Source of the DNA: Acidobacteriota bacterium
GTDB lineage: Bacteria; Acidobacteriota; Terriglobia; Acidiferrales; UBA7541
Length of the DNA: 42,638 nt
Direction: 5' to 3'
Assembly: GCA_003152355.1 (NCBI GenBank)
Contig: PMAA01000043.1
Span: forward strand, 35,142 to 77,779
Position 1 is the stretch's first letter. Every line of letters begins with the position of its first letter. Under the pieces are notes generated by a model. The model saw only the letters and a program-made list of their open reading frames with translations, was not told the origin of the DNA and did no database searches. Made by a program: the position numbers and the translations under genes. Positions 4,357 to 41,492 of this stretch are shown here, piece by piece.

Positions 4357-5898
4357 TTATGACTTCAACCTCCCGTAGCCGAGCGCGCGCAGTGTCTTAC
4401 GCGCCATCTTCCGGTCGTCGAACTCAATGGTGCGATCGTGAAGAATCTGAGTATTCTCATGGCCCTTACCTGCGAGCAGCACAAGATCGCCCGGTTTCGC
4501 TTCACGCAGAATCAGCTCGAGTGCCTTTTCCCGATCTGGTTCGATCCGATAGTTCGCATTCGCTTTTTGCAATCCCACGACCACGTCACCAATGATCTGC
4601 GAAGGGTCTTCCGAGCGAGGGTTGTCGCTGGTCAGCACGACGAGCTGCGTGTTTCTGCCAGCGGCTTCGCCCATGAGCGGGCGAGTCGTCCGGTCGCGCT
4701 CGCCGCCTGCGCCAAAAAGCAGCAGGACTCGACCTAATGGATTCAATTCCCTCGCGGATCTCAGCAGATTTCGAATGGCGTCATCGGCGTGAGCATAATC
4801 AACGGCCACGTGAAACGGCTGTCCTTCGTCGAGCAACTCAAACCGGCCCGGGACATTTTCGAGCTCCTGAATTCCCTTTTCGATCGCCGCGATAGGAATG
4901 CGCAAGGCGATCGCCGCGCCGATTGCTGCAAGGATGTTAAAGACATTCACGCGCCCGACGAGGGGCGAGCGCACTTCAATATTTCCCGCGGGTGAATCGG
5001 CCATGAAATTGAGGCCTGAGAATTCGAGCGTGAAGTTTGGCGCCGTGATTTGCGCGCTCGGATGTAATCCATATGTCAGTGTGCGCTGGCCGGCTTGAAC
5101 GAGCTGCTCGTGCAGCCGCGAACCCCACGAATCGTCCACGTTCACGATCGAGAAGTCCGCAGCGCCCGCGCCCGTGCCTTCGAAGAGCCGGTGCTTGGCG
5201 GCGAAATATGCCTCGAAGGTGTGATGGAAATTCATGTGATCGTGGGTGAGATTCGTAAAAACGGCGGCGGCAAAATGGCAGCCCCACAGGCGGTCCATGG
5301 CGAGCGCGTGAGAACTAGCTTCGAGCACGGCCGAAGTTCCACCCGCATCGCGCAGGGCGGCGAACATCTCCTGGAGATCTAGTGATTCGGGCGTGGTGTG
5401 TCTCGCTGTTCGTTCGCCGCCGGGCAGGCGATATCCCGTCGTGCCGATCAAGCCGGCGGTTTGGCCGGCAGCGCGAAGAATCGAATTGATCAGAAACGAT
5501 GTCGTTGTTTTGCCATTCGTCCCGGTGATGCCAACGAGCGTTAATGCGCTCGCGGGATGATGGAAGAAGTTCGCGCTGACGGTAGCGAGGGCGCGCCGCT
5601 CGGAGCCGGGCGCGAGCTGGATCCAAGCGATGCCAGCAGGCACGTCAATCGATCGAGGCGATTCCGTGGCGATTGCTGCGGCGCCGCGAGAGAGCGCATC
5701 TGCGATGAAGCGATTACCGTCGATCTTCGCTCCCTGGAGCGCGAAGAATAGCGAGTGCGGCGTAGCTTTGCGGCTATCGTATGTGACGGCCCAAATTTCA
5801 GCGTCGGCCGGCCCGTTGACGAGCAGCGTTTCGACGCCGCTCAATAGTTCCGTTAGGTTCGCCAACAGCTTCGCCGATAAATCTTTCGACAAGTTCAT
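4357..5898 (-). CDS. murE: UDP-N-acetylmuramoyl-tripeptide synthetase MurE, meso-diaminopimelate type
   Basis: Cytoplasmic Mur ligase adding the third stem-peptide residue. The start is placed at the ATG at 5898 (MNLSKDL), giving 513 residues. The reading frame continues upstream to 6144, but that part is arginine-rich and overlaps ftsI. TYDSRKA (39-45) is the UDP-binding motif, GTNGKTT (126-132) the ATP loop and K235 in YFAAKHRLFE the expected carbamylated lysine. DNPR at 425-428 is the motif that selects meso-diaminopimelate over lysine, so the organism should have Gram-negative-type A1gamma peptidoglycan. An in-frame ATG at 5958 is an alternative start. Confidence 0.95.
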   Translation of the reverse strand: MNLSKDLSAKLLANLTELLSGVETLLVNGPADAEIWAVTYDSRKATPHSLFFALQGAKIDGNRFIADALSRGAAAIATESPRSIDVPAGIAWIQLAPGSERRALATVSANFFHHPASALTLVGITGTNGKTTTSFLINSILRAAGQTAGLIGTTGYRLPGGERTARHTTPESLDLQEMFAALRDAGGTSAVLEASSHALAMDRLWGCHFAAAVFTNLTHDHMNFHHTFEAYFAAKHRLFEGTGAGAADFSIVNVDDSWGSRLHEQLVQAGQRTLTYGLHPSAQITAPNFTLEFSGLNFMADSPAGNIEVRSPLVGRVNVFNILAAIGAAIALRIPIAAIEKGIQELENVPGRFELLDEGQPFHVAVDYAHADDAIRNLLRSARELNPLGRVLLLFGAGGERDRTTRPLMGEAAGRNTQLVVLTSDNPRSEDPSQIIGDVVVGLQKANANYRIEPDREKALELILREAKPGDLVLLAGKGHENTQILHDRTIEFDDRKMARKTLRALGYGRLKS

Positions 5899-37506: not shown

Positions 37507-38889
37507 CTACTTTCCGGGACGCTGAATGCCGAGTTCGCGCAACTTTTCCTGGAGACTTTGCCTGTGCAAACCGACTTCGGCCGCTGTCTTCGACACGTTC
37601 CAATGATGTTCTTCGAGCTTGCGCCGCAAATAGGCGATTTCAAATTGGCGCTTCGCCTCGCGAAAATCTTTTTCGTTCAGATAGTGATTTTCGCCGCTCG
37701 CTGGCCGGCCTGGTAAGGGACTCGCGCCGTCTTGAATTTCGGCCGGGAGATCCAGAGCGCGAATTTCGTCTCCGCTGGCGATAATCAAACTGCGTTCGAG
37801 CGCGTTGCGCAGCTCGCGCACATTGCCCGGCCAGTCATAGCGTTCGAGGAGCTGCATCGCACCATCGCTAAGACGAATCGCGCGCTTATGTCTTGCGCCC
37901 AACTGCTCGACAAGCGCCGCGCTCAGGAGAGGAATGTCATCTTTATGCGCGCGGAGCGGCGGAACTTCTATTGTGACGACGCGCAACCGATAATAGAGGT
38001 CTTCGCGAAACTTGTCCGCAGCGATTTCGACGGGTAGATCGCGGTGCGTTGCGCTTATCACGCGCACGTCCACTTCGACCGGCCGAGATCCTCCGAGGCG
38101 CTCGATCGTGCGATTTTCGAGGGCGCGCAAAACCTTCGCTTGCGTCAATGGATTCATGTCCCCGATTTCATCGAGGAACAGTGTTCCGCCCGACGCCAAT
38201 TCGAATTTCCCTTTCCGCTGCTGCGCCGCTCCCGTGAAAGCGCCTTTTTCAAATCCGAATAGCTCCGATTCGATCAAGTTCTCGGGGAGCGCCGCGCAGT
38301 TAACGGCCACAAACGGCCGCTCCGATCGAGGAGAACGCGCGTGAATCTCCTGCGCGAGGAGATCTTTTCCCGTTCCGCTTTCGCCGAGGATCAGAACCGT
38401 GGCGTCAGTTGGCGCGACGCGATCGGCCAAATCGAAGACGCGTCGCATCGCAGCGCTCCGCCCGAGCATTCGTCCGAATTCGCCGTGAGAAACGAGTTCT
38501 CGCCTCAAGCGTTCGTTCTCTTCGCCCAACTCGACCAGTTTCACAAGCGTTTCGACACGCTTCCGCAACTCGTCAATGTCGAAACCCTTGACGATGTAAT
38601 CCGCCGCGCCCACGCGCATCGCTTCGACGGCCGTCTTTGCGGTGTCGAGCGCGGAAACGACGAGCACCGGCTGCGCAAAGCCGGATTCACGCATCCAGCC
38701 GAGCAGGGAAATACCGCCACCGTCGGGCATCACGAGATCGAGAAGTATGACGTCCGGACGCTCAACGCCTATCGCCTCCCGTGCTGCGGCCGTCGAAACA
38801 GCCTCGACGATCCGGTATTTGTGCTCGAGCGCGCGGCGCAAACCGTATCGCGCCGCTTGCTCGTCATCCACGATCAGGACGGTTTTCAT
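37507..38889 (-). CDS. NtrC-family sigma54-dependent response regulator
   Basis: The 460-residue protein has a receiver domain (1-115), a sigma54-activating AAA+ domain (about 137-375) and a Fis-type DNA-binding helix-turn-helix (about 415-455). The phosphorylation site is D51 (VILLDLVMPDG), with D8/D9, S79 and K101; K101 is followed by Gly-Phe instead of the usual Pro-Phe. Walker A is GESGTGKD, the sigma54-contact loop GAFTGA is intact, and LFLDEIGDM is Walker B. The C-terminal VSKTAAEVGLHRQSLQEKLRELGI is a classic Fis-like domain. It follows the sensor kinase after 46 bases. Confidence 0.95.
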   Translation of the reverse strand: MKTVLIVDDEQAARYGLRRALEHKYRIVEAVSTAAAREAIGVERPDVILLDLVMPDGGGISLLGWMRESGFAQPVLVVSALDTAKTAVEAMRVGAADYIVKGFDIDELRKRVETLVKLVELGEENERLRRELVSHGEFGRMLGRSAAMRRVFDLADRVAPTDATVLILGESGTGKDLLAQEIHARSPRSERPFVAVNCAALPENLIESELFGFEKGAFTGAAQQRKGKFELASGGTLFLDEIGDMNPLTQAKVLRALENRTIERLGGSRPVEVDVRVISATHRDLPVEIAADKFREDLYYRLRVVTIEVPPLRAHKDDIPLLSAALVEQLGARHKRAIRLSDGAMQLLERYDWPGNVRELRNALERSLIIASGDEIRALDLPAEIQDGASPLPGRPASGENHYLNEKDFREAKRQFEIAYLRRKLEEHHWNVSKTAAEVGLHRQSLQEKLRELGIQRPGK

Positions 38890-38935
38890 GCTTCCGGGTG
38901 TCCTTGGCGAAACAAATTCGGTGCGTACACCGCTC

Positions 38936-40501
38936 TCACGATCTGGCGAGCGGAAGTGTCACGGTGAACTTCGTGCCGCGCCCGTCCTGCAAGGGACTCT
39001 CGCAATCGAGCGTCCCCCCAATCTCACTGAGGCGCCGCGTGACAATCGCCAGTCCAAGGCCTGTCCCGCTGGCCTTCGTAGTAAAGAAAGGCTGGAAAAT
39101 TCTGCTGCGCTCTTCTAGCGAGATGCCAGGGCCAGCGTCGCAAATCTCCACAATTAAGCAGCCATTCTTGCGCACTGCTTCGATCTGAACACAGCCGCCT
39201 CTTGACTGAGATTCAACGGCATTCACGATGAGGTTCATAAAAATATCGCTCAGAGCTTCTTCCGAACCTTTTACAGAGGTTTCCTCGGCCGGCCGGCTGA
39301 CTTCGATCGTCACACCGCGCTGTTCCGCGTCGCGCCGCAGAAGATTCACGACGCCGTCAATGGCCGCACCTCCCGGAACGCTTTCGTCCACCCCGGCAAC
39401 GTGCACGGGCGGTTTCGAATATCGGAGCAGTTGGGTCAATTTCATGCTCAGTCGGTCAAGCTCGCTAAGCACGAGCATCAAGTCTTTCCTGGCTGATTCG
39501 CTCAGATCGCGATTTTCCAATTGAACTTGCAGGATGGTCTTCATCGAGCTCAAAGGATTCCGCAAATTGTGCGAGACGCTCGCTGCCATCTGCCCGAGCA
39601 TCGCAAGCCGCTCCCTTTCGGCCAGCGTGCGCTCGAGTTCGATCTTTTCCTGAATGAGCCGGCAAAGGTCAATCAGCCCCGGCAATTGCTCGCCGAGAAA
39701 ATCAAGCGCGGCAGTCACTTCTCCGGTCAGGACCGAACCAGTTGACGCGGCTTCAAGAACGCCGATCAATTCACCATTGCGAATCAGTCGAATTCTCGCC
39801 ACGTGGCCGAGGCCGCCCGGCGAGCGCAGCGGCTCGATTGTTGAATCTTCTGGGACCGATAGGCGTGCTACGGAGAGTCCGAATTCGTCTTGCACGCGCG
39901 TTTCGACAAACTCGATGAAGCGAGCGAGATCGCCTTGCCGCGCGCGCTCCTGCAATTCCCCAAGCAGCCGCTGCATTTTGTCGAGGCCGCGCTTGAAAGT
40001 TCGCTGAAGCGCGCGGCCGATATTCCGCTCCAGTGGCTCGAACAGCACAACGAGGGTGAATAGCAAAATGCTGGACGTCGCTTCGGGCGGCAGGACAGGT
40101 TCGAGCCATCCGCTAATTCGTCGCACGAGTCCCAGATACAGGAGAGCCAGAAACGCCCCGGAAACAGCGTAGACAAGATTTTTCTGCGAGCCGATCCCAA
40201 GGAAATTGTGCCGCAGAACCCAGTATTCAAGGACGGCGCTCGGCACAATCGCAGAAAGAAGGATACCCAGGGACAAGCTATCCGACAGATTAGGCCGCGC
40301 AGGTCCCCCAAGGGCGTAGACGTAGATTGTAAGCGCCCCGGCCAACGCGCAGAATATGCCGAGGAAACGGTCGAGCCGGCGAAAAGGCGCCTCGCGCTTC
40401 GCCGCGCTTGCGAAACTGATCGCAGCACTTCCGAATAAGGTCACTCCGAGCCAAACGGCATAAGGGGGACTGGCGCGGTTGGCAGGTTCGAAAAACTCCA
40501 T
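38936..40501 (-). CDS. Sensor histidine kinase with GAF-like domain (3' part of a probably frameshifted gene)
   Basis: The frame from the ATG at 40501 gives 521 residues: five membrane helices (about 12-215), a GAF-like domain (about 220-285), a dimerisation domain with phospho-accepting H311 (SVSHNLRNPLSS) and a catalytic domain with DIFMNLIVNAVE, DAGPGIS and GTGLGLAI. These motifs indicate an active kinase partner for the adjacent NtrC-type regulator. Its membrane region looks like the second half of the N-terminal 7TM sensor region of histidine kinases. The missing first helices are encoded upstream in another frame (40528-40914). The open frame reaches 40765, but those extra residues are arginine-rich and not protein-like. 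Confidence 0.88.
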   Translation of the reverse strand: MEFFEPANRASPPYAVWLGVTLFGSAAISFASAAKREAPFRRLDRFLGIFCALAGALTIYVYALGGPARPNLSDSLSLGILLSAIVPSAVLEYWVLRHNFLGIGSQKNLVYAVSGAFLALLYLGLVRRISGWLEPVLPPEATSSILLFTLVVLFEPLERNIGRALQRTFKRGLDKMQRLLGELQERARQGDLARFIEFVETRVQDEFGLSVARLSVPEDSTIEPLRSPGGLGHVARIRLIRNGELIGVLEAASTGSVLTGEVTAALDFLGEQLPGLIDLCRLIQEKIELERTLAERERLAMLGQMAASVSHNLRNPLSSMKTILQVQLENRDLSESARKDLMLVLSELDRLSMKLTQLLRYSKPPVHVAGVDESVPGGAAIDGVVNLLRRDAEQRGVTIEVSRPAEETSVKGSEEALSDIFMNLIVNAVESQSRGGCVQIEAVRKNGCLIVEICDAGPGISLEERSRIFQPFFTTKASGTGLGLAIVTRRLSEIGGTLDCESPLQDGRGTKFTVTLPLARS

Positions 40502-40527
40502 CGATTTCGCGACAAGCAGCGGCGGTA

Positions 40528-40914
40528 TCACGCGCGCGCGACGACCATTAAAACAAGCGCGTAGTTGAGCCACGCGAGATAACGCAACCAACTCTTGCTC
40601 TTGGCGGCGGCCTCGTTCATCAAGAAATATTCGACGTGCGCTTGAAACAAAAAGGCAGGCAGAAACGCGAGGCCCAAGCCCGTCAGTCCGTTTGCGAACA
40701 TGATCGTCGCCGCCGGAGGCACGGGGTAGTGAATTACCGCGTTCAGGAGCAACACCCCGCCGCAATAGAAGGCGAACAGCGAGAGGACCAGAAAAAAAAG
40801 TACCCGCTCAAAAGTTCGCGGCCGGCGATTCCCGAGGATCAACGCCAGGAAAAATAATTCGACGAGAGATCCGGCGGTAAAGCCGACAAGGCGGACGTAG
40901 AAGAGGACAGTCAT
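40528..40914 (-). pseudogene. N-terminal membrane part of the sensor kinase, separated by a frameshift
   Basis: This 128-residue frame encodes four hydrophobic helices (about 4-24, 36-61, 69-93 and 107-127) and ends with TGA directly after a (CG)5 tract at 40531-40540. Removing one CG unit, or a -1 slip, joins it to the kinase frame without a stop, giving about 660 residues with a complete nine-helix sensor region. The alternative is two separate proteins with 26 bases between stop and next ATG. I consider a disrupted single gene, or an assembly error, more likely because the halves together match one known domain type. Confidence 0.65.
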
Positions 40915-40996
40915 GATTCCAGTAGCTTGGACGAGATGCTACGCCCCTAACCGCTATCAAGGCAACAGCGATGTGTCGGATATTTCTGACAGTATC

Positions 40997-41025
40997 TAAT
41001 AATATGAAAATAAGATAGTTAACAA
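40997..41025 (-). promoter_or_regulatory. Candidate promoter of the sensor kinase operon in an AT-rich island
   Basis: The 263 bases between the kinase and groES include a markedly AT-rich stretch (about 40980-41035). On the minus strand TTGTTA (41025-41020) and TTATTA (41002-40997) are 17 bases apart. The match is only moderate. Confidence 0.3.
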
Positions 41026-41068
41026 TTATTCCGAACGCAATCGAACCGCCTGCGAGCTGTTTAATCGC

Positions 41069-41096
41069 TTGACATCATCAAGAATTTTGCTATATT
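41069..41096 (+). promoter_or_regulatory. Vegetative promoter of groESL
   Basis: A consensus -35 TTGACA (41069-41074) and an extended -10 TGC-TATATT (41088-41096) with a 16-base spacer. The -10 overlaps the left arm of the CIRCE operator by two bases, so HrcA binding would block RNA polymerase directly. Confidence 0.85.
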
Positions 41097-41121
41097 AGCA
41101 CTCGCTGTCGAGGAGTGCTAA
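41095..41121 (+). promoter_or_regulatory. CIRCE operator (HrcA binding site)
   Basis: A perfect inverted repeat TTAGCACTC-N9-GAGTGCTAA, identical to the CIRCE consensus. It places groESL under heat-shock control by the HrcA repressor, whose gene is not in this window. Confidence 0.96.
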
Positions 41122-41177
41122 AAGTCCAGTTCTCCTCATCTAGCAATTCTGAGTACTCCACCGGAGGATAAGCAAAG

Positions 41178-41492
41178 ATGGCAGTCAACGTTACCCCGCT
41201 GCACGACCGCGTGCTCGTGCGGCGTCTGGAAGAAAAGGAAACCGTAAAGGGCGGAATCATCATCCCCGACACGGCCAAAGAAAAACCTCAAGAGGGCGAG
41301 ATCATCGCCGTTGGTGCAGGACGAATTGAGAAGGGCGAACGGATTCCGCTCGATGTAAAAGCGGGAGACCGGGTGCTCTTCGGCAAGTACAGCGGTAACG
41401 AAATCAGGGTCGACGACCAAGAGTATCTAATTCTCAAGGAAGACGAAATCCTGGCAAAAATCGGCGGTGCAGCAAAGGCCGCTAAGAGGTAA
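41178..41492 (+). CDS. groES: Co-chaperonin GroES
   Basis: Heptameric lid of the GroEL folding chamber. The 104-residue length is slightly above the usual 95-97 because of a basic C-terminal tail (GGAAKAAKR). Conserved features are [17 protein letters not shown] at the N terminus, the mobile loop (about 18-32, with [16 protein letters not shown]) and [14 protein letters not shown]. The ATG at 41178 has GGAGG ten bases upstream. It is the first gene after the CIRCE-controlled promoter and is followed by groEL after 65 bases. Confidence 0.97.

Follow-up and report, generated by a model that had tools for sequence, protein, structure and literature searches.

The window, a stretch of 42,638 nucleotides from a draft genome of an Acidobacteriota bacterium, contains a sensor kinase locus in which the coding sequence is divided between two reading frames of the reverse strand, with a response regulator gene downstream and a divergent groES gene upstream. 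The features of this locus are as follows:

37507–38889, reverse strand: the partner response regulator, 460 residues and intact, with receiver, sigma-54 activator and Fis-type DNA-binding domains; assigned from its domains and from its position adjoining the kinase in relatives
38936–40531, reverse strand: the rest of the kinase, consisting of membrane segments, linker, HisKA and HATPase_c; assigned from domains and conserved columns
40528–40531, reverse strand: the GTGA overlap of the upstream stop codon and the kinase-frame GTG, a possible reinitiation point; read from the sequence
40531–40540, no strand assigned: the (CG)5 run at which the reading frame switches; located by junction scoring, its frequency being at chance level
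40528–40914, reverse strand: the N-terminal part of the sensor kinase gene, present here as a separate 128-residue open reading frame in frame with residues 1–126 of single-frame homologues
41095–41121, forward strand: a perfect CIRCE-type inverted repeat (HrcA operator) between the kinase and groES, the core motif of which is also found at 18 orthologous loci
41178–41492, forward strand: groES, the divergent neighbour and orthology anchor; assigned from synteny with relatives

The 128-residue membrane frame begins with an ATG at 40914 and ends with a TGA at 40530–40528, while the histidine kinase lies in a different frame that is open from a GTG at 40531 to 38936, consistent with the earlier note, which had placed the two in separate frames. 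The GTG (40531–40529) overlaps the upstream TGA as GTGA. The offset between the two frames is one CG unit, and the switch coincides with the run CGCGCGCGCG, a (CG)5 tract at 40531–40540. A script was used to vary the number of units in this tract, which revealed that four units join the frames into a single product of 658 residues with no stop codon and seven units give 660 residues, while with three, five or six units the frames stay unjoined; the claim that the loss of one CG unit would fuse the frames was therefore correct. When the shift was placed at each codon and scored against 32 homologues, the best-scoring junction lay inside the CG tract, in agreement with the position given in the earlier note. 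A shift at the A8 run at 40792–40799 was also considered and was rejected, because the frame fits the homologues on both sides of that run and the junction scoring favours the CG tract. The probability of a shift hitting a (CG)5 run by position alone was estimated from the genome density of such runs at approximately 0.0009. This coincidence supports slippage as the cause, and does not distinguish slippage in the cell from slippage in the assembly. The membrane frame and the kinase frame are the halves of one gene, as the relatives described below show.

The HisKA and HATPase_c domains of the kinase both scored above the Pfam gathering thresholds, and no sensor domain was identified by Pfam in the N-terminal region of the protein or of five homologues. 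Hydropathy analysis of the fused region gave approximately nine predicted membrane segments, so that the "7TM-type" sensor region described previously is not supported by either the domain search or the number of segments. The 128-residue frame contains three full segments and most of a fourth, and the break falls towards the end of predicted segment 4. The condition of the gene was assessed on the columns that at least 90% of relatives conserve. Of these, 182 of 194 were retained, with both sides of the break represented: 31 of 35 in the N-terminal 128-residue part, all 35 in the membrane stretch directly past the break and 83 of 87 in the kinase core. There is no decay of the kinase on either side of the break, which is compatible with both an assembly error and a recent mutation.

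The gene is best described as the kinase of an NtrC-type two-component pair in which the multi-pass sensor is uncharacterised. The best models for the kinase core were AtoS and ZraS and the best model for the regulator was AtoC, with the nearest solved structure to the kinase core being that of ZraS (PDB id. 9jfj). The NtrB/NtrC-like systems AtoS/AtoC and ZraS/ZraR share the same pairing of a HisKA-type kinase with a sigma-54 activator, but the kinase of the window differs from AtoS and ZraS in having an N-terminal region of approximately nine segments that contains no Pfam domain. The scores of kinase and regulator were all far below the curated cut-offs of these named families, those of the kinase being 168.5 bits against 646 for AtoS, 152.4 against 479 for ZraS and 93.2 against 300 for PrsK. 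The PrsK/PrsR pair of the PEP-CTERM system has the same general layout of a multi-pass kinase, the topology of PrsK being multi-pass, and a sigma-54 regulator; however, the PrsK model (TIGR02916) matches the kinase core alone, at 93 bits against the cut-off of 300, and the regulator scored 387 against 502.6 for PrsR.

Orthologues of the kinase were searched for in 89 genomes of the same family and were identified in 46 besides the genome of the window itself. The junction was spanned in 44 of these, and in all 44 the membrane and kinase parts form one uninterrupted open frame with no stop codon, whereas the window sequence as given does not. The remaining two orthologues begin past the junction, in one case (G077) where the contig ends. 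A match from another family of the same class (G051) also spans the junction with no stop. The earlier note had held that homologues consistently encoding the two parts as separate genes would refute a split gene; none of the 44 junction-spanning relatives encodes them in this way, and the reading of the locus as two separate genes is rejected, since the parts are never encoded apart in relatives. The relatives thus uphold the proposal that a frameshift at the CG tract has split a single gene. Alignment of the fused protein to homologous kinases, as had been suggested, showed that most homologues match the four-unit length at the junction with no gap. Among the named entries of an open collection, the best match was a Candidatus Acidiferrales bin (L022), the protein of which looks identical around the junction to that of a family member (L105), so that the organism of the window is probably an acidobacterium belonging to that group. 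The only genome of the same genus (G001), which is 65% complete, gave no match to the kinase locus.

The window has the conserved neighbours of the family, a divergent groES and a downstream sigma-54 regulator, and in nearly all loci examined the orthologues are flanked by a divergent groES on one side and by the same sigma-54 regulator on the other. The order of groES, divergent multi-pass kinase and sigma-54 regulator (37507–41492) is kept across several genera, a pattern suggestive of a functional connection or of a common promoter region. The perfect CIRCE element, TTAGCACTC-N9-GAGTGCTAA, at 41095–41121 precedes groES and lies in the stretch that also holds the divergent kinase promoter. 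The catalytic part of one orthologue (G099, L126:2867-3028) is broken at two NN joins, and no other orthologue has a break further down its frame.

The genome of the window (G000) is a draft metagenome bin of 280 contigs that is 86% complete and 6% contaminated. Frameshifts were surveyed in about 0.90 Mb of this genome (loci L128–L143 and L204–L243) and in 1.19 Mb of G001. Two-base "NN" joins occurred 82 times in the 0.90 Mb sampled and several interrupt genes, while the 1.19 Mb of G001 contained three N runs of ten bases each. Comparison of the proteins of the two genomes in both directions gave six genes with broken frames in approximately 113.5 kb of aligned coding sequence of G000, four at N joins (L239, L224, L130 and L206) and two free of N (L128 and L243). 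The proteins of G000 revealed one broken frame in approximately 122 kb of G001. The few further candidates from the comparison of G001 with G006 all fall in one region (L156, with the G006 matches L257 and L258), where the genes seem to have diverged rather than undergone clean shifts. One of the N-free cases, L128:10780-12253, is on contig C9, as is the window, and carries two frameshifts approximately 0.4 kb apart in a gene that we take to be an amidohydrolase. It is either an assembly problem or a pseudogene, and because the shifts are close together with well-conserved sequence on each side it is more like an error than decay. In L239 an N join near 5094 interrupts a gene that presumably encodes a queuine tRNA-ribosyltransferase, and the small contigs C8, C11 and C27 consist of N throughout. 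The window itself contains no N. From the N-free background of about two genes per 113.5 kb, a small sample that allows a rough figure, a gene of 2 kb would be hit with a probability of a few per cent.

The earlier note had raised the possibility of phase variation, in which the CG run would change length at high frequency and switch the kinase on and off. Such a mechanism would resemble that of contingency loci, where genes likewise carry a frameshift at a simple repeat inside the open reading frame, and a change in unit number at this tract does restore the frame. However, (CG)5 runs occurred three times in the window against 3.67 expected from shuffled sequences and 122 times in the genome, so that the tract is no commoner than chance. 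At five units it is also shorter than the six or more dinucleotide units used as the cut-off in a survey of phase-variable genes (PMC6321876), and so below the length taken as hypermutable. The repeat is neither over-represented nor conserved at the locus: a comparable run was absent from the matching stretch of the other homologues inspected, with the exception of G016 (locus L012), from another genus, where a 12-base GC/CG run lies near the same place with the frame intact. That run could be counted in favour of switching, although it is probably there by chance. Within the 0.90 Mb of G000, CG runs reached a maximum of 14 bases and homopolymers a maximum of nine, with no other dinucleotide runs of five units or more, and the genome does not look like a user of repeat-driven switching. 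Among the titles listed in a literature search there was no precedent for phase variation of a kinase through a CG repeat. Every junction-spanning relative is moreover in the ON frame, and the finding that all 44 comparable relatives are whole makes an assembly error or a recent mutation the most likely causes rather than a switch. Phase variation is accordingly considered very improbable, and that part of the earlier proposal was not sustained.

The most likely cause of the split is a consensus or assembly error at the CG run, to which we give somewhat better than even weight. This is favoured by the single frame of all 44 orthologues together with the conserved groES and regulator synteny, by the gap-free alignment of the fused length, and by the condition of the bin, with its 280 contigs, its NN joins and six broken genes against one in G001. 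The two N-free shifts of L128 on the same contig and the break at NN joins in G099 point in the same direction. Isolated frameshifts in otherwise conserved genes of draft assemblies are likewise the mark of spurious pseudogenes (Cooley and Wright, 2024, PMC11017572), and assembly has been documented to generate false frameshifted genes in isolate genomes, metagenome-assembled genomes lying outside that study; the lack of decay around the break fits this origin. Against an error are the lack of N in the window and the exact coincidence of the shift with a run prone to slippage, which would fit a genuine replication slip as well, while the N-free frameshift background consists of two genes only, which could themselves be real pseudogenes. 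The next most likely cause is a recent one-off natural frameshift, in which one CG unit was gained by slippage and this strain was left with an inactive or truncated kinase beside an intact regulator. This explanation draws on the same lack of N and the same improbable position inside the tract, and the want of any other disabling change is as expected if the event was recent. Its single occurrence and the other unexplained frameshifts in the same assembly count against it, and we regard it as possible but rather unlikely. For this particular shift we therefore infer an error rather than a mutation.

It is improbable that the split is real and kept, whether as a GTGA-coupled two-chain kinase or as toggling between one and two chains by slippage of CG units. 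In a working two-chain receptor the GTGA overlap would allow reinitiation, and the separate membrane piece and kinase would reassemble; the overlap, the break near the end of segment 4 and the conserved columns kept in both parts make this arrangement possible but unlikely. As no relative is built as two chains, neither the GTG nor the next ATG, at 40502, is preceded by a Shine-Dalgarno-like motif, and the GTGA overlap is an automatic by-product of the slip, we consider it distinctly improbable. Programmed ribosomal frameshifting at the CG run could join the frames, since a -1 slip would do so without a stop, yet there is no X XXY YYZ slippery heptamer, on inspection of the sequence the GCG/CGC codons offer no re-pairing after a -1 slip, and such a slip is needed by no relative and not conserved. 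This last explanation is scarcely credible.

The locus thus holds a single gene, which encodes a membrane-bound sensor histidine kinase of approximately 658 residues, the partner of the downstream sigma-54-dependent response regulator, and in the living organism this gene is most likely a single open frame. In the draft, a two-base difference in the length of a short alternating CG run, most likely arising from assembly or consensus calling, splits that frame on paper. In draft metagenome genomes, the finding of a single conserved gene with a frameshift at a short CG run should not be read as a sign of phase variation, and annotation as one sensor kinase is appropriate for the gene described here. 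It belongs to a conserved group of orthologues in which a multi-pass kinase and a sigma-54 regulator adjoin groES and whose sensor is uncharacterised.
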